A stretch of DNA of 64,000 nt from Polyangiaceae bacterium (lineage in GTDB: Bacteria > Myxococcota_A > Polyangia > Polyangiales > Polyangiaceae), in NCBI GenBank assembly GCA_019637295.1, contig JAHBVX010000016.1, forward strand, positions 1 to 64,000, written 5' to 3'. Shown piece after piece: positions 1-8,282 of the stretch. The notes under the pieces were generated by a model. That model ran no database searches. It worked only from the letters and a program-made list of their open reading frames with translations, and was not told the origin of the DNA. How positions within the stretch are numbered: the stretch's first letter is position 1; each line of letters opens with the position of its first letter. A program made the translations under genes and the position numbers.

Positions 1-374
1 ACTTGGATCGCATTCGTAACGGCTTGACGCGGAGCGCGCAGGCACGCGGCCGCGAAGTCGAGTTCCATCGCGGTAGGACTAAGCATGCCGACCTGCCGCA
101 TAAGCCACCGGCCGAGTTCGCGAGCCCCGAACCATTCGGCTTGCCTCTGAGAGCAATCGGCGCGGATCAGTAGGCTGGCGCCCAGCGGTCCCTCCCAGAG
201 CTTTGCGGGGCCATCCAGTTGGTCGATATCAAAAACAGCATGCCGCGCCCCTCCGCCGAGAAGGGCGTTTGCCAGCTTCAGTGGCGCGCCCAACGCCGGC
301 TGGCGTGCTCGCTCGTAGGCCGCTTCGGCGAGAGCTTCGATTCCTCCTGCATCCATGCGCCATGGACGCTCCAT
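1..374 (-). CDS. ImmA/IrrE-family protein with degenerate HExxH, partial
   Basis: This reading frame runs off the left edge of the window; 124 codons are visible. It begins MERPWRMDAGG, and the second Met at 356 is an alternative start; neither has a clear ribosome binding site. The pattern (helical start, LA..LL at about residue 30, a strand before IRAD, then EWFGARELGRWLM and ELDFAAACLRAP) follows ImmA/IrrE metallopeptidases, where the corresponding segments read AHELGHW and E..AN.FAA.LLMP. Here both zinc-binding His positions are Arg (ARELGRW), so peptidase activity is unlikely. ImmA-type proteins normally cleave a phage or ICE repressor; this copy may have kept only the binding role. It lies 37 bases downstream of the zinc-ribbon gene and probably shares its transcript. 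Confidence 0.7.
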   Translation of the reverse strand, partial: MERPWRMDAGGIEALAEAAYERARQPALGAPLKLANALLGGGARHAVFDIDQLDGPAKLWEGPLGASLLIRADCSQRQAEWFGARELGRWLMRQVGMLSPTAMELDFAAACLRAPRQAVTNAIQ

Positions 375-1152: not shown

Positions 1153-1181
1153 TTGACCGGTAGAGTAACAGTAGCTACTGT
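1153..1181 (+). promoter_or_regulatory. Predicted leaderless promoter of the recombination operon
   Basis: On the plus strand, -35 TTGACC (1153-1158), a 17-base spacer and -10 TACTGT (1176-1181) put the start of transcription at about 1188, one base before the ATG at 1189. No ribosome binding site is present. The -10 lies inside the 16-bp palindrome, so a protein bound there would block this promoter. Confidence 0.6.
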
Positions 1182-1577: not shown

Positions 1578-1786
1578 CGCCGGTTCGCTGCACCTGCGGT
1601 GTGTGCTGGGACTGGTTGGACGTCCCGAGCCTGGGTCTTCAGGACGACGGCGCCGGGGGCCTACTCGACCTGCGCAACTGCCCGTCCTGCGGAACCACGC
1701 TCGCTCGCGAGGTGCAGTCATCAAGCCTCGCTCCCTACGAACGCACCACCCAGAGGGGAGCGCCATGCAACACCACCTTCCACTGA
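1574..1786 (+). CDS. Small zinc-ribbon protein
   Basis: A 70-residue protein with two cysteine knuckles, CTCGVC near residues 6-11 and CPSC near 42-45, typical of a treble-clef or zinc-ribbon fold. Between the knuckles it reads DWLDVPSLGLQDDGAGGLLDLRN, a pattern of a structured loop rather than a linker. It starts at a GTG overlapping the previous stop codon. Its last 22 bases overlap the start of the exonuclease gene. Such tiny zinc ribbons are common in phage early operons; its partner, nucleic acid or protein, cannot be told. Confidence 0.6.
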   Translation: MTPVRCTCGVCWDWLDVPSLGLQDDGAGGLLDLRNCPSCGTTLAREVQSSSLAPYERTTQRGAPCNTTFH

Positions 1787-2745
1787 TCACCGCGAGCCGG
1801 GTCCGGGCTTTCCAGCGGTGCCCTCGCTACCACCACATCCGCTACAACCTCGGCTACCGGACCACCGAGCGAGCAGCCCCCCTCGCATTCGGGTCGCTCT
1901 TCCACCGAGCCCTGGAGGCATGGTGGACCGCCGCCGACGGGCCACGCATCGAGGCCGCACTCGAGCAGCTCGACCGCGAGGTCGACTCCGACCCCTACGA
2001 CCTCGCGCGGGCTCAGGCGCTCATCGAGGGCTACGATATCCGGTGGTCCGATGCGGGGCTCACGCCCGAGCTCGTTGAGGCCACCTTCGAGTTGCCGCTC
2101 ACGAACCCGCAGACCGGCGCCGCGTCGCGGACGTACCGTCTCGCCGGGAAGGTGGATGCGATTGTCCGCTCGGGTCCTCAGCTCTGGCTGCTCGAGCACA
2201 AGACTACGAGCGAGACCATCACGCCCGGCAGCGCCTACTGGGCGAAGCTGCGGATGGACAACCAGGTCTCGATGTACCTGAACGGGGCCGAGGCTTTGGG
2301 TCGACCCGTCTCGGGCTGCATCTACGACGTGATCGGCAAACCGACGCTGCGCCCCTACAAGGCCACGCCTCCTGAGGTCCGCAAGTACAAGAAGGACGGC
2401 TCGCTGTACGCAAACCAGCGAGAGGAGGACGAGACACCCGAGGCGTATCTCAGCCGTCTCCGTTGGGACATCTCCGAGAACCCCGACCGCTACTACCAGC
2501 GCGCTGAAGTCGTGCGCATTGGCGACGAACTGCAGGAGTTCGACTGGGAGCTCTGGCAGACGGCGCGGGCCATCCGCGACGCCGAGATCGCCGCGCGACA
2601 CCCGCGCAACCCCAACGCTTGTTTTCAGTGGCAACGCCCCTGCGACTACTTCGACGTCTGCAGCGGCAGCGCCTCACTCGATGACGTCTCGCGGTTCGTC
2701 CACGAGACCGACCCACATCCGGAACTGCAGGAGGAACACCAATGA
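1765..2745 (+). CDS. PD-(D/E)XK (RecB/Cas4-like) exonuclease
   Basis: A 326-residue nuclease of the PDDEXK_1/Cas4-RecB type. The N-terminus has SRVRAFQRCPRYHHIRY (conserved Cys at 19), then FGSLFHRALEAWW with the motif-I His, then the catalytic core VDAIV (Asp) and LLEHKTTS (Glu-x-Lys) near residues 130-150, and a C-terminal CFQWQRPCDYFDVC cluster near 285-300. The N-terminal Cys and the C-terminal three could hold a 4Fe-4S cluster, as in Cas4 and AddB. The ATG at 1765 follows GAGGGGAGCGCC, a good ribosome binding site. It overlaps the next gene by ATGA. In this context it is expected to resect double-stranded ends for the single-strand annealing proteins that follow. Confidence 0.85.
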   Translation: MQHHLPLITASRVRAFQRCPRYHHIRYNLGYRTTERAAPLAFGSLFHRALEAWWTAADGPRIEAALEQLDREVDSDPYDLARAQALIEGYDIRWSDAGLTPELVEATFELPLTNPQTGAASRTYRLAGKVDAIVRSGPQLWLLEHKTTSETITPGSAYWAKLRMDNQVSMYLNGAEALGRPVSGCIYDVIGKPTLRPYKATPPEVRKYKKDGSLYANQREEDETPEAYLSRLRWDISENPDRYYQRAEVVRIGDELQEFDWELWQTARAIRDAEIAARHPRNPNACFQWQRPCDYFDVCSGSASLDDVSRFVHETDPHPELQEEHQ

Positions 2746-3644
2746 GTCGAATGGCACAAATCGCAACGAGTGGCGGCAACAGGGGTCGTCGGATCCTTAT
2801 CTACGGGCCTCCCGGCGTCGGCAAGTCCACGCTCGGCGCAGACGCGCCGGGGGCAGTGGTGCTGCCGGTCGAGGAGGGCGTCGACGATCTCGAGGTCGCG
2901 TCGTTCCCTAGGCCCCAGAGCTGGGAGGAGATTCTAGAGGCGGTGGACGTGCTGGCCGCGGGCAAGACGGCGCACAAGACGCTCGTCATCGACACCGTCA
3001 GCGCAGCCGAGACACTCGCGCACCGGCGGCTCATCGAGGGCAGCAAGTGGAACACTGTCGAGAAGTGGGAAGGTGGCTACAACAAGTGGCGCCAGGGCGT
3101 GCTCGACATCTGCTGGCGCCCACTGCTCGCTCGTCTCGACGCGCTGCGGGCCAGCACCGGGATGACCGTCATCCTCCTCGCCCACAGTCAGGTGAAGGCC
3201 GTACGGGACCCAGACAGTGAGGGCTGGGACCAACACCAGATCCAAATGGAGGGGCTCGCCGCGGGGCTCCTGACGGCCTGGTGCGACGTGGTGGCGTTCT
3301 ACGCCTTCGACGACATCAGGGTCGTGGAGGGCAAGGCTCGAGGCGTACACACGGGCCGGCGGGTGCTGCGAGCGGAGCATTCGGCGACTGCGGTCGCGAA
3401 GAACCGGGTGGGACTACCGGAGCTGCTCGAGGTGCCGCTGGCTGCGCCGTGGAGCGCGCTCGGGCGATACCTGGCACCGCGCGATCTGGCGACGGAGCTC
3501 GCTGAGCTGACGGCTCAGCTCCCGTCGGACGCGGCGGAGCGTGCCAGCCGCGCGGCCAAAACCGCGGACAAGGCCACGATGGGCCGAATCATCTCTCACG
3601 CGCGCCGCTTGGTCGCGCAGCAACAGGAAGGAGCATCAGCATGA
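2742..3644 (+). CDS. Sak4-like RecA-fold ATPase (phage recombination)
   Basis: A 300-residue P-loop ATPase. Walker A is GPPGVGKST at residues 22-30 and the Walker B strand is TLVIDT near 80-86. The RecA-core layout, with a short N-terminus and LLAHSQVK in the sensor region, matches phage AAA_24/Sak4 proteins, which act with SSB-like partners in single-strand annealing or exchange. The C-terminal 60 residues are helical and Ala-rich. It overlaps both neighbours by four bases (ATGA), and lies between an exonuclease and an SSB-like gene, the usual arrangement of a phage recombination module. A generic phage ATP-binding protein is the fallback name. Confidence 0.8.
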   Translation: MSRMAQIATSGGNRGRRILIYGPPGVGKSTLGADAPGAVVLPVEEGVDDLEVASFPRPQSWEEILEAVDVLAAGKTAHKTLVIDTVSAAETLAHRRLIEGSKWNTVEKWEGGYNKWRQGVLDICWRPLLARLDALRASTGMTVILLAHSQVKAVRDPDSEGWDQHQIQMEGLAAGLLTAWCDVVAFYAFDDIRVVEGKARGVHTGRRVLRAEHSATAVAKNRVGLPELLEVPLAAPWSALGRYLAPRDLATELAELTAQLPSDAAERASRAAKTADKATMGRIISHARRLVAQQQEGASA

Positions 3645-4105
3645 TCGCAAGGGGAACATACACCGCTCGGGCGCAGGGATTCGAGTTTGGCGTGACGGCG
3701 AAGGACAGTGACTTCGTCTCGGTCGAGTTCGAGATCCGCGGAGGCCCGGCCCACGTGGGCGACCGCATCGGGTGGCGTGGTTATTTCACTGAGAAGACCA
3801 CGGACCGGACACTCGAGAGCCTGAAGCACGCCGGCTGGGACGGTCGCGACGTCATGCTCCTTCAGGGGCTCGGGAGCCGGGACTGCCAGATCGTGGTGGA
3901 CCACGAGGAGTACGATGGGAAGACCTACGCTCGGGTACAGTGGGTCAACGCCCACGGCGGCGGCGGCCTGGGGCCAGGCCAGCAGATGGACGAAGCGCGC
4001 AAGCGCGCGTTCGCCGCTCGGATGCGCCGGTTCACGGGTGGCGCGCCGGCGGGAGCGCCCACGGCGCCGGCACCCGCGTTCGACGAGGACGACGTCCCGT
4101 TCTGA
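3641..4105 (+). CDS. DUF669-like single-stranded DNA-binding protein
   Basis: A 154-residue protein with a beta-rich N-terminal domain (GTYTARAQGFEFGV, then FVSVEFEIRGG, then GRDVMLL and DHEEYDGKTYARVQWV), a pattern like DUF669-type phage proteins. It ends in a Pro/Ala linker and the acidic tail FDEDDVPF, closely similar to the DDDIPF tail with which bacterial SSB recruits partner proteins. That tail and the position after a Sak4-like gene suggest it coats single-stranded DNA and recruits the ATPase. It follows the ATPase stop by an ATGA overlap. A hairpin-forming repeat follows its stop codon. Confidence 0.8.
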   Translation: MIARGTYTARAQGFEFGVTAKDSDFVSVEFEIRGGPAHVGDRIGWRGYFTEKTTDRTLESLKHAGWDGRDVMLLQGLGSRDCQIVVDHEEYDGKTYARVQWVNAHGGGGLGPGQQMDEARKRAFAARMRRFTGGAPAGAPTAPAPAFDEDDVPF

Positions 4106-4274: not shown

Positions 4275-5915
4275 ATGACCCAACTGATGATGATTTCCCC
4301 CGCGAAGCTGACTCCGTCACCCACCAACCCGAGGCGCGACCTCGGGGACCTGACGGAGCTGATCGAGTCCCTGCGGCAGCACGGGATGATCGAGCCCATC
4401 GTCGCGCGTGAAGGCCGAACGGCCGACGAGTACGAGGTGGTGTGCGGCCACCGTCGCCACGCCGCCGCCCAGGTGATCGGTCCGGAGCCCGTCCCCGTCC
4501 TGGTGCGCGAGCTCGACGACGACCAGGTGCTCGACATCCAGCTCGCCGAGAACATGGAGCGCTCGGACCTAACGGCCTTCGAGGAGGCCGAGGCCTTCCA
4601 GCTGCGGGTATCGCGCGGGCAGACGGTCGAGCGCATCGCCGCGCGGATCGGTCGGAGCGCTGGCTTCGTCGCCCAGCGCCTCAAGCTGCTGGAGCTCCAC
4701 CCCGAGGTGCAGCAGGCGCTCCGCGAGGAGGCCATCAGCGTCTCGGTCGCGCAGCTGCTGGGGCGGCTGCCCGCCGACCTGCAGGAACGCGCTCTCGAAG
4801 ACGTTCAGGTCGGCCCCGAGGATCGGGTTCGGACCGTCGCCGAGGCGAAGGCTGAGCTGGGACGGATCCTGCGCCGACTGGACCGCGCCCCGTTCGACGT
4901 AGCGGACCCGTCGCTCGGGCAAGACGAGGAGCACGGGGCGCGTGGCGCTTGCACGACCTGCCCGATGCGGAGCGGCAACCAGGGCCGGCTCTTCGACGCG
5001 GACGAGGAGGACTACTGCCTCGACGAGCCCTGCTACCGGGCGAAGTGCTCGGCTATGGCGCGGCGTGCCGAGCTCGCGGGCAAGCCGGTGTTGCGCGGGC
5101 AGGAGGCGGCGACCGCGCTGCAGAGCTGGGGCGGCGACTGGGTGCGACTGGACACTGAGGTCTGGATCGAGGACGCAGCGAAGCTCGCGGCCTTCGATGA
5201 TGGCGACGATGACGTTGCGGATGATGTCTCGCGGGAGATATCGGTTCGCGAGTTGCTCGCCGAAAGCGACCACGAGCCCACACTAGCGTTCAATGAGGAG
5301 ACGGGCACGGTCGCGGAGGTGGTGCCGAGGCACGTCGTGGACGCGGCCGTCGCGCGAGCTGAGGGGAGGGAGCCGGAGGCGCCCCCGGACCCGGGTGGCC
5401 CCGCGAAACAGAATGCGGCGGCCAAGCGTGAGGAGAAGGAGAAGCTCCGGAAGCGCGCCATCGACGCCTACATCAAGCAAGCGGCCGGCCAAGCGGTGTC
5501 GATCTCGCCCGACGTCCTGCTGGGCCTACTGGTGCGAGCGCTGGCTCGGCAGACCGAGCACACGAGCGTGCTGCGGGTGCTGAAACGTCTGGGCATCAAC
5601 CCAGGCGATGAGGGGGCTCGCATCGCCTTGTCCCGTCACGCCGGCGTCGTGCTGCCCAGTCGCCTGCCGGCGCTGGCGCTGCATCTCGTGCTCGAGAACG
5701 CTGCGCCTTGGTTCTTCCCTCTCGGGGATGACGGGGACGATGTCGACGAGGACCACGACACGTCGTCGCTCTGGGACGACGCGCAACGGGTGGTGTCGTC
5801 GCTGGAGCTGCTGGACGTGAGGGGCGTTGAGAAGGAGCTCGTCAAGGCCGACAAGGCGAAGGCGAAGAAGAAGGCCCCGGCCAAGCGGGCGAAGAAGAGC
5901 GGAGGCGCAGCATGA
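4275..5915 (+). CDS. Large ParB/Srx-domain protein with Cys cluster
   Basis: This 546-residue protein begins with a ParB N-terminal domain: the NPR motif (TNPRRDL, residues 17-23), a GHRRHAAA motif near 58-65, and LAENMERSDLTAFEEAEAF near 96-114. A helix-turn-helix follows (ERIAARIGRSAGFVAQRLKLL), as in ParB/RepB/Spo0J proteins. A mid region carries CTTC...CLDEPCYRAKC, a possible metal site, and the end is Lys/Ala-rich (KAKAKKKAPAKRAKKS), likely DNA contacting. No ParA partner is visible. Related phage ParB-like proteins act in regulation, plasmid-prophage segregation or as nucleases, and the CTP-binding GERRxR-type motif is reduced here to GHRRHAAA. ATG 4275 is preceded by AAGGAGG, buried in a hairpin. 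Confidence 0.8.
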   Translation: MTQLMMISPAKLTPSPTNPRRDLGDLTELIESLRQHGMIEPIVAREGRTADEYEVVCGHRRHAAAQVIGPEPVPVLVRELDDDQVLDIQLAENMERSDLTAFEEAEAFQLRVSRGQTVERIAARIGRSAGFVAQRLKLLELHPEVQQALREEAISVSVAQLLGRLPADLQERALEDVQVGPEDRVRTVAEAKAELGRILRRLDRAPFDVADPSLGQDEEHGARGACTTCPMRSGNQGRLFDADEEDYCLDEPCYRAKCSAMARRAELAGKPVLRGQEAATALQSWGGDWVRLDTEVWIEDAAKLAAFDDGDDDVADDVSREISVRELLAESDHEPTLAFNEETGTVAEVVPRHVVDAAVARAEGREPEAPPDPGGPAKQNAAAKREEKEKLRKRAIDAYIKQAAGQAVSISPDVLLGLLVRALARQTEHTSVLRVLKRLGINPGDEGARIALSRHAGVVLPSRLPALALHLVLENAAPWFFPLGDDGDDVDEDHDTSSLWDDAQRVVSSLELLDVRGVEKELVKADKAKAKKKAPAKRAKKSGGAA

Positions 5916-6337
5916 CCGCCCTCGCCCTGCTCAAGGACATCGCGTCCCGCGGAGAGCACCCGTCGCTGTACCGCGCATGCGAGCTGACGATCGCGACGGA
6001 CGCTGAGATCATCCTCGCGGCCCACATACCGGAGATACGCGGCGCTCTTCCCGCCACCGACGCCATGCTCAAGGCGTTGTCCGACGCGGCACGCGGAGCG
6101 ACTCGAAAGCATTCGCCCCCGCCACCCGGCGTGCTCGACGGGCGCGAGTGCCTGGTCGACGGGTGGCCGTTCAACGGCTGGCTAGTCGGTAGTGTGCTGC
6201 GCGAATGGACGCCCGAGCGCATGGGCATCATCCACAACCGCAACGGGCACGGCCTTGCGCTGGTGGGAGGCGGGTGCATCGCCCTGATCATGGGGCTCAG
6301 GAGTGCGGACGGCGACCCGCCGAGGTGGGACTGGTAA
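5912..6337 (+). CDS. Hypothetical protein
   Basis: A 141-residue protein with no recognised family. The N-terminal half looks helical (LALLKDIASRGEHPSLYRACELTIATDAEIILAA) and the C-terminal half contains Trp-rich segments (DGWPFNGWLVGSVLREW) and a hydrophobic GLALVGGGCIALIMGL stretch that could be a buried core strand or a short membrane segment. It overlaps the ParB-like gene by ATGA and its own TAA overlaps the next ATG (TAATG at 6335-6339), so it is expressed in the same coupled operon. Confidence 0.6.
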   Translation: MTALALLKDIASRGEHPSLYRACELTIATDAEIILAAHIPEIRGALPATDAMLKALSDAARGATRKHSPPPPGVLDGRECLVDGWPFNGWLVGSVLREWTPERMGIIHNRNGHGLALVGGGCIALIMGLRSADGDPPRWDW

Positions 6338-6792
6338 TGACTGACCTACGCAGCATGCGCGCCCTCACCATCATGCAACCGTGGGCATGGGCGATCTGCC
6401 ACGCGAACAAGCGCGTCGAGAACCGGACGTGGCAACCTCCGCGCGAACTGCTCGGCCGGCGCATCGCGATCCACGCTGGCAAGCGCGACGACGCCGCGGC
6501 GGTGCAGTGGATGCGCGACGAGCTCGACATCGATCCACCTGCCGCGTTGCCCCGCGGCGCGATCGTCGCGACCGCGACGCTGAGCGGGGTCGTCGCGGTG
6601 AAGCGCCACGTCGTGACCTACGTCGGCGACGTGGACCCCGCGATGGTCGACTCACCCTGGTTCTCCGGGCCGTTCGGCTGGGTGCTCGATGACGTGCGCG
6701 TACTGGCCGATCCGGTGTCGTGTCGTGGTGCGCAGGGGCTGTGGACGATGCCGCCAAACATGGCGCGAGCGGTGGAGGCGCAGCCCCAGTGA
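6337..6792 (+). CDS. ASCH-domain protein
   Basis: A 151-residue protein with the ASCH/PUA-like signature: LTIMQPWAWAI near residue 10, then KRVENRTWQPP, then GRRIAIHAGKR and RGAIVATATLSGVV. ASCH domains bind RNA or nucleosides, and some have nucleoside amidohydrolase or RNase activity. Which applies here is unknown. The start codon shares an A with the preceding TAA. The ORF is open further upstream to 6205, but the coupled ATG at 6337 begins the conserved domain. Phages and integrative elements often carry one ASCH gene in their early operon. Confidence 0.8.
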   Translation: MTDLRSMRALTIMQPWAWAICHANKRVENRTWQPPRELLGRRIAIHAGKRDDAAAVQWMRDELDIDPPAALPRGAIVATATLSGVVAVKRHVVTYVGDVDPAMVDSPWFSGPFGWVLDDVRVLADPVSCRGAQGLWTMPPNMARAVEAQPQ

Positions 6793-6974
6793 AACTCGTC
6801 ATCCTCACGCCCGAGCAGCTCCGCGCCATCGTGACCGAGGCGGTCGCCGAGGCGTTGCGCCCACCGGCAGCCCCGAGGCCCAAGCGCCGGACCCCGAAGC
6901 GAGCTCTGCCGCCGGCCGATCCCGAGGCAGACCGGCAGCTCGCCGATGACCTGCGGCGGCGGGGGTTGGCGTGA
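6789..6974 (+). CDS. Small Arg/Lys-rich protein
   Basis: A 61-residue protein starting at GTG (GTGA overlap with the ASCH stop). It has an N-terminal strand and amphipathic helix (KLVILTPEQLRAIVTEAVAEAL), a basic Pro-rich middle (PKRRTPKRALPP) and a short C-terminal helix. The middle might contact nucleic acid. It resembles the small helical proteins often found before integrase genes, some of which are excisionases, but no winged-helix or helix-turn-helix signature is visible and the assignment is open. Confidence 0.55.
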   Translation: MKLVILTPEQLRAIVTEAVAEALRPPAAPRPKRRTPKRALPPADPEADRQLADDLRRRGLA

Positions 6975-7141
6975 CCGAGCCCGAGCACACCTACTCGGGC
7001 AACTGCTGGGAACCGTCCGAAGGATGCCCGTGCGGCGTCGACCTGTGCGACGTATGCCACGAGCACTGCGCGCCACGGTGCGAGTGCGAGCAGTGCCCAC
7101 CGTGCCCCGGGTGCCCGGGGATGACGGAGACCCAGCCATGA
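6971..7141 (+). CDS. 56-residue Cys-rich protein
   Basis: This reading frame holds 11 cysteines in 56 residues, including CPCG, CDVCHEHC, CECEQC and PPCPGC. The spacing suggests two metal-binding knuckles. It starts at a GTG overlapping the previous stop and ends in ATGA with the integrase start at 7138, so it is part of the coupled operon. No family is recognised; it is too short to appear in a 60-codon ORF list. A zinc-binding regulator of the integrase or an excisionase-like cofactor is possible, but this rests only on position. Confidence 0.55.
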   Translation: MTEPEHTYSGNCWEPSEGCPCGVDLCDVCHEHCAPRCECEQCPPCPGCPGMTETQP

Positions 7142-8271
7142 GCGCCTGGGTGGAGCGTCGAGGCGAGCGCTTCCGCGTCCGCTCCCGGATCGCCGGCCGC
7201 ATCGTGACCGTCGGGACCTACCCGACCGAGGGCGAGGCCTCGCGCATCCGCGACGCGTACGAGCGCCGCCAGCGCGTCTCCGAGGTGCGCCGTGGTCTGA
7301 CCCTCGCGGTCTTCGGCGAGAGCTTCCTGGCGGCCAGGCAAGCCCGTGGGGTGCGGGGCAGGGGACCGGAGGCTAGCCGCTGGTCGACCTACATCGTCGG
7401 TGACCCCATCGGTCAACTCGTGCTCCGCTCCCTGCGCCGTCGGGACGTGCTGGAGTGGCGCGATCGCCTGCTCCGCCGAGGCCTCGCCGCCCAGACGGTG
7501 AGGAACGCCCTGAACCTGCTTCGCTCCGCCCTGGCCGATGCTCTCGACGCGGAGATCGTGGCCGAGAACGCGGCCCTGACCGTCCGGGTGCCCCGGAGCG
7601 CCACGACGACGACGGTGGAGGAGCTCAGCGGCGTCCTGCGCCCACTGGAGCAGCAGGCCCTACTTGCCGCCGTCCCGGAGCGCTTTCGCGCGATGGTGGC
7701 GCTCGCGCTGCTGACGGGGCTGCGCTGGTCGGAGCTCGCGCACCTGCGCTGGGAGGACGTGCGGGACGACGTGATCGTCGTGCGGCTGTCGCGCGGTGGG
7801 CTGGCCACAAAAGCAGGACGCCCGCGTCTCCAGCCGATGCTGGAAGCGACGCGGGCGGTGTTGGGCGGGATGCCCAGGGTGGGGGAGCTGGTGCTGGGAG
7901 GAGACAGGGCTTCGGGCTGGCGCCCTCGAGGCTGGACGAGCTGGGTGCGCGCCGCCGGCATCACGCGACGCGTGCGGTGGCACGACCTCCGCCACACCTG
8001 CGCGACGAGTCTGCTGGCGGGCTGGTGGGGGCGACGCTGGTCCCTCGAGGAAGTCCGGGGCTACCTGGGCCACCGGAGCGTCACGACGACCGAGCGCTAC
8101 GCGCGGCTCCTCGACGACACCATCGCGCTTGCTGTCAGCGAAACGGCTGCTCCCCACATGCTCCCAGTGGTCGAATCCGCCGGCGACGAAACCAGCAGTA
8201 TTTCTGCGGCGCCCCCGGCAAGAGTCGAACTTGCGACCAACGGTTTAGGAAACCGCTGCTCTATCCACTGA
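7138..8271 (+). CDS. int: Tyrosine site-specific integrase
   Basis: A 377-residue phage-type tyrosine recombinase. An N-terminal arm-binding region (residues 1-65) is followed by a SAM-like core-binding domain and the catalytic domain. The catalytic set is complete: Arg near 196 in TGLRWSEL, His282-Asp-Leu-Arg285-His286 in HDLRHTC, His312 in GYLGHRS and Tyr321 in ERYARL. The frame is open upstream to 6946, but ATG 7138 (ATGA overlap) starts the conserved MSAWVERRGERF segment. About the last 20 codons, to the TGA at 8269-8271, lie inside the oppositely oriented tRNA-Arg gene, so the attachment core overlaps the coding region and excision may change the C-terminus. It is the last gene of the element's plus-strand operon. 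Confidence 0.92.
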   Translation: MSAWVERRGERFRVRSRIAGRIVTVGTYPTEGEASRIRDAYERRQRVSEVRRGLTLAVFGESFLAARQARGVRGRGPEASRWSTYIVGDPIGQLVLRSLRRRDVLEWRDRLLRRGLAAQTVRNALNLLRSALADALDAEIVAENAALTVRVPRSATTTTVEELSGVLRPLEQQALLAAVPERFRAMVALALLTGLRWSELAHLRWEDVRDDVIVVRLSRGGLATKAGRPRLQPMLEATRAVLGGMPRVGELVLGGDRASGWRPRGWTSWVRAAGITRRVRWHDLRHTCATSLLAGWWGRRWSLEEVRGYLGHRSVTTTERYARLLDDTIALAVSETAAPHMLPVVESAGDETSSISAAPPARVELATNGLGNRCSIH

Positions 8272-8282
8272 GCTACGGGGGC
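8210..8282 (-). tRNA. tRNA-Arg (anticodon CCU), integration target
   Basis: A 73-base minus-strand tRNA. The acceptor stem GCCCCCG (8276-8282) pairs with CGGGGGC (8211-8217), with a G discriminator at 8210 and no encoded CCA. The D arm is GCUC/GAGC. The anticodon stem is GCGGU/ACCGU around the loop UUCCUAA, giving anticodon CCU (tRNA positions 34-36, 8247-8249). The T arm includes GGUCGCAAGUUCGACUCUUGCC. tRNA-Arg(CCU) is a single-copy gene in many bacteria and a frequent target of integrases. The integrase CDS runs antisense through its 3' half. Confidence 0.95.

Follow-up and report, generated by a model that had tools for sequence, protein, structure and literature searches.

ImmA-type proteases give prophages and ICEs one of their main means of sensing damage and exiting lysogeny. 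Such metalloproteases can act across elements, as described for MpaR of Listeria, where phage phi10403S depends on the metalloprotease of another element (PMC6872733). The same M78 fold also binds ligands, with ssDNA bound by PprI and CoA by PrpR (PMC10904395, PMC6765138), and the IrrE-like domain of MtPrpR is built without the conserved HExxH residues (PMC6765138). The locus described here lies at the left edge of a stretch of 64,000 nucleotides (the window), whose base 1 is base 1 of contig C8 (136,981 bp) in a 7.65-Mb genome that also contains contigs C11 and C12; it codes for a zinc-less ImmA/IrrE-like protein, named ImmA*. Fused regulators are known to contain M78 domains without catalytic function; what is new is therefore a standalone, phage-borne, operator-flanked zinc-less ImmA, of which a literature search of limited scope found no description.

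Superfamily membership and the two contigs

The original prediction had recognized an ImmA/IrrE homolog by eye in the truncated frame, and profile comparison bears this out. The window piece matched no Pfam (including PF06114), PHROGs or NCBIfam model, and pairwise BLASTP on ImmA* found nothing; homology is therefore demonstrated by a subfamily profile. Searches with the window piece gave chance-level matches only among the proteins of 97 relatives, and none among viral contigs and phage records. The sole match to a genome contig, L147 (Labilithrix), was an oxidoreductase ORF with common ground barely beyond FGEVTGAP, and was discarded. The host's order was searched first with PF06114 and next with a profile (A2) made from four standalone M78 proteins of that order found after the PF06114 search, the query being absent; this led to a phage-type M78 subfamily. 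Against 5,469 ORFs, A2 matched the window ORF at E 1.3e-4, a piece of C11 at 1.3e-5 and the joined protein at 2.4e-15, and those of its matches up to E 0.1 that were inspected were M78-like. With a held-out profile of 13 relatives, likewise without the query, the window piece scored 38.4 bits (E 3.1e-10), the C-terminal piece reached E 3.7e-10 and the joined protein E 1.4e-24; the top score for shuffled versions of both pieces (n = 4,000) was 8.1 bits.

A structure model, which had been proposed as a check, is predicted to take the ImmA/IrrE fold. The AF2 model of the 124-aa window piece, built with an alignment of 16 relatives, had a pLDDT of 92.5, and its PDB matches were, best first, IrrE (3dti, Z 9.9), PprI (8sln, Z 9.7), MtPrpR (6d2s, Z 8.1) and CapP (7t5t, Z 7.9), beneath which the values fall to Z 3.6; in a viral library, the best named matches were IrrE-like phage proteins. 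The alignment behind the model consists of M78 relatives, so that fold and sequence do not count as independent evidence. By held-out profile and predicted fold, ImmA* belongs to the M78 ImmA/IrrE superfamily.

The C-terminal end of the protein, missing from the window, was located at the start of C11. The A2 profile matched C11 bases 10-156 in the model region that continues the window piece, C8 and C11 have the eight bases ATCCAAGT in common at their left ends, and across the join the ImmA* frame runs on to 204 aa, ending at C11:249. Moreover, the palindrome CAGTAGCTACTG has just two copies genome-wide, one near each joined contig end, and a 45-bp att repeat is identical on both contigs; because of these two independent facts C8 and C11 belong together, and they carry two halves of one prophage of ~40 kb. 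A chance assembly join was dismissed, since overlap, frame, operator and att all agree.

The features of the locus are collected in Table 1. The part on C11 adds genes for a helicase, a primase/helicase, terminase, portal, head, tail sheath, tape measure, baseplate, holin and endolysin, so that the tRNA-Arg-integrated element looks like a complete contractile-tail phage (myophage). The location in a temperate element, implied by the original prediction, is supported by the presence of att, integrase and phage genes; the element is a prophage and not an ICE. A tRNA-Met(CAT) also lies inside the prophage (C11:14387-14458). The ORF of the phage helicase, which lies outside the window at C11 (L139):1995-5747 (1,250 aa), holds two inteins, the first of which (with a LAGLIDADG domain) interrupts the Walker A motif and the other a DEAH-type box. 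Inside the second intein, in a different reading frame, lies a DUF559/MTES_1575-type nuclease ORF (E 3.6e-9; L139:4009-4605, plus strand), across which the intein's own frame stays open; it is possibly a nested homing endonuclease gene.

Table 1. Features of the ImmA* locus and its prophage, with one pseudo-M78 protein from another genome. Plain coordinates are window positions.
Feature	Position	Strand	Remarks
ImmA*, N-terminal part (first 124 codons)	3-374 (feature 1..374)	minus	frame open at contig edge
ImmA*, C-terminal remainder	C11:1-249		reached past 8-bp overlap; completed protein 204 aa
P0002, 232 aa	412..1110	minus	upstream of ImmA*, same direction, 37 nt between
Promoter-like TTGACC-17-TACTGT of rightward operon	1153..1181	plus	by eye from sequence
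Putative operator O1, palindrome CAGTAGCTACTG	1169..1180	none	1 of 2 copies in 7.65-Mb genome
PD-(D/E)XK exonuclease	1603..2745	plus	ORF limits; real start may be internal
Sak4-like single-strand annealing/ATPase protein	2742..3644	plus	family scans
Phage single-strand DNA-binding protein (SSB)	3641..4105	plus	family scan
ParB-like protein	4275..5915	plus	family scans
phrog_3193 phage protein, weak ASCH domain	6205..6792	plus	
Phage integrase	6946..8271	plus	phrog_1, E 1.5e-45
Prophage end, 45-bp att core	8208..8252	plus	= C11:32036-32080
tRNA-Arg(CCT), attachment gene	8208..8282	minus	host DNA to its right
Gene X, 198 aa	C11:754-158		tail to tail with ImmA*
Promoter-like TTGACT-17-TACTGT	C11:760-788		by eye; geometry equal to 1153..1181 site
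Putative operator O2, second CAGTAGCTACTG copy	C11:776-787		
Pseudo-M78 protein L129	L129:1258-1968 (G093:C334)	minus	wider relative set

The zinc site

Residues 84-90 of ImmA* read ARELGRW (codons 85-89, RELGR), which places R85, R89 and A102 at the zinc-ligand positions and retains the catalytic Glu86. The substitution of both zinc-binding His by Arg on a preserved scaffold, as originally read, therefore holds, with the third ligand, replaced by Ala102, lost in addition. All 13 aligned relatives have the first His and the third-ligand Glu, and they carry either His or Glu as the second ligand. Outside the ligands, 12 of the 13 columns conserved at ≥90% are kept in ImmA*, the exception being Ile to Leu; set against 0/3 ligands kept, this gives a Fisher p of 0.007, in an alignment that contained the query and is thus mildly biased. 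An intact HExxH elsewhere in the completed 204-aa protein was looked for and none was found. The motif is HExxH in 19 and HExxE in 8 of 27 distinct relatives and RExxR in none of them; the proposed check for homologs sharing the His-to-Arg changes found none in this set, which holds no close homolog with the ImmA* state.

Zinc proteolysis by ImmA* is very unlikely, because three ligands are lost and no HExxH exists elsewhere. In Listeria MpaR, the change of one motif His (H54A) abolishes repressor cleavage (PMC6872733); cleavage is therefore not to be expected of a protein in which all three ligands have been exchanged. Judged by the defining catalytic feature in its sequence, ImmA* is not an ImmA metallopeptidase, though it is an M78 relative by homology. 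That it is still a metallopeptidase through other ligands is scarcely credible: Glu86 and the fold are kept, and HExxE is a frequent variant among family members (8/27), so that the ligand set tolerates change, but the positions here are Arg, Arg and Ala, the full protein has no further HExxH, and MpaR H54A is inactive (PMC6872733).

The wider family contains other departures from the motif. The relatives L085, L091, L103, L104, L106, L107, L110 and L138 have HExxE with the third Glu kept, often as HE[LI][AG]EW, and HExxE in phage-type M78 relatives is a possible alternative zinc site. The standalone M78 protein L129 of genome G093, from another subfamily, has RKVAR in place of HExxH and also lacks the third ligand; those of its relatives in which the motif was seen are all intact, and L129 evidently lost its ligand residues separately from ImmA*. 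HExxH is also often absent from the long PrpR/RamB-like fusions of the order, the host genome has an intact M78 protein (motif HEIGH, C12:1092496), and a viral scan using L131, a phage ImmA protein from IMG/VR, returned L131 alone. The recurrence of Arg at both His positions in L129 would suit a repurposed sensor, in which the former zinc cleft (Arg85, Glu86, Arg89) would bind a ligand such as ssDNA or a nucleotide and so report infection or damage to DNA. The ligands bound on the same fold by PprI (ssDNA) and PrpR (CoA) point the same way (PMC10904395, PMC6765138). Such a role is nevertheless improbable, in that the PprI/PrpR ligand site involves a GAF-like domain, for which the 204-aa ImmA* appears too short.

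The immunity region and the probable role of ImmA*

With C8 reversed into C11, the gene order is exonuclease operon, O1, P0002, ImmA*, X, O2, and the Cro-like gene with replication genes. The two putative operators have the 17 bp CAGTAGCTACTGTTACT in common, and both overlap promoter-like sequences of matching geometry. Genes X and ImmA* are convergent, their 3' ends overlapping by 92 nt, and X and the Cro-like gene diverge at O2. No recognised HTH or other family match was found for X, and its AF2 model (pLDDT 52) was too poor for use. A homolog of X in genome G003 (E 1.3e-4, 39% identity in the alignment) likewise diverges from a Cro-type HTH gene, and X is weakly similar to the gene that precedes the L085 ImmA (E 0.047). 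We infer that X may be a CI-type repressor that acts at both putative operators.

The zinc-ribbon gene originally placed beside ImmA* corresponds to P0002, which adjoins it and has four Cys near its zinc-ribbon-like N-terminus; domain scans gave P0002 no family match. Its relatives occur in two genomes of the host's order (E 1e-21 and 9e-13), and a distant one in Bordetella avium phages stands two genes downstream of the repressor and is annotated as TerB family. ImmA* does not directly follow a repressor, its upstream gene being P0002 and the candidate repressor X being convergent; among the closest relatives of ImmA*, the ImmA gene usually stands directly after a repressor-like gene.

In phage lambda, rexAB stands between two operators, and P0002 and ImmA* are similarly placed. 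The two could accordingly form a Rex-like superinfection exclusion pair made from the prophage outside repressor control, a reading to which the place of the Bordetella-phage P0002 relative, two genes behind the repressor, lends some colour. The chance of this is slim, since no ImmA*-like gene was seen next to the relatives of P0002 in L043 and L044, the Bordetella phage has none annotated next to its own, and the orientation is unlike that of rex.

The main rival to a regulatory role is a relic in slow decay: a phage that no longer needs its own ImmA, for example with induction now relying on another element's protease, would let the gene drift to loss, its frame open by chance. An open 204-codon frame by itself is weak proof of a maintained gene at 66% GC. 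All zinc ligands are gone, a conserved spacer segment (~25 aa) near the C-terminus is missing, third-position GC (0.66) is below that of most genes of the phage, and the gene is displaced from the usual place behind the repressor; furthermore, the host has the intact HEIGH protein, and phi10403S is a precedent for reliance on another element's metalloprotease (PMC6872733). Decay is still considered unlikely, given that loss is restricted to the zinc ligands with 12/13 other highly conserved columns kept, that the R89 codon, CGG, is at least two changes away from any His codon, and that the remaining prophage looks intact.

Given the conserved scaffold and the position of the gene inside the switch, a binding regulator is the best reading, and a probability of roughly 55% is assigned to the view that ImmA* is a pseudoprotease which descends from a phage M78 protein of the ImmA type and has been retained in the prophage immunity region as a non-catalytic regulator. 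The otherwise intact-looking phage gene set and the existence of L129, likewise a standalone M78 protein with both His replaced by Arg, support this regulatory role. ImmA* would no longer be able to cut X and would bind X, or the repressor of a rival element, through its ancestral repressor-binding surface; cross-element action of such metalloproteases is known from MpaR (PMC6872733). The bound repressor would be sequestered, as by an antirepressor, or alternatively would be shielded from active ImmA proteases, such as the host's intact protein on C12. If so, the repressor-recognition surface would have a use even where nothing is cleaved, either in stoichiometric antirepression or in guarding against foreign ImmA proteases, and the locus is small and complete enough for direct testing. 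A broader and more doubtful proposal is that phages have repeatedly made zinc-free ImmA pseudoproteases, in at least two subfamilies and with Arg at both His positions, which control repressors by binding; the ImmR/ImmA switch would then have a branch that works without proteolysis and is reversible or protective.

Comparison with known systems

ImmA of ICEBs1 and MpaR of Listeria resemble ImmA* in M78 profile, predicted fold, residence in a temperate element and position in an immunity region beside regulator genes; however, ImmA* lacks the three zinc ligands, and cleavage is not expected from its sequence. In phage ImmR-ImmA pairs, the protease gene stands directly behind the repressor on the same strand, whereas ImmA* is convergent with X; several relatives of ImmA* do stand after a regulator gene. 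The nearest of these relatives, the phage ImmA proteins L131 and L135 from IMG/VR (33% identity in the alignment), have intact HELGHW and HELAHW motifs, unlike the ARELGRW of ImmA*, and L131, which also has the N-terminal MERPW of ImmA*, lies directly behind an HTH regulator gene instead of P0002.

Deinococcus IrrE/PprI gives the top fold match (Z 9.9), across the N-terminal peptidase-like domain, but PprI is active as a metalloprotease and also has HTH and GAF-like domains, whereas ImmA* has no zinc site, and family scans matched no HTH domain in its 204 aa. Similarly, CapP of CBASS matches in the M78 fold (Z 7.9) but is an active protease that cuts CapH. The closest precedent is MtPrpR, matched at Z 8.1, whose IrrE-like domain without zinc residues is fused to a regulator; proteins of the MtPrpR/RamB/ScfR type are fusions of ~500 aa (HTH, M78-like, sensor), and ImmA* is a standalone 204-aa phage protein. 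Lastly, if X is the repressor and binds both palindromes, the arrangement would recall the lambda immunity region through its two copies of one operator-type palindrome and its divergent Cro-like gene, with ImmA* in a rex-like position and the opposite orientation.
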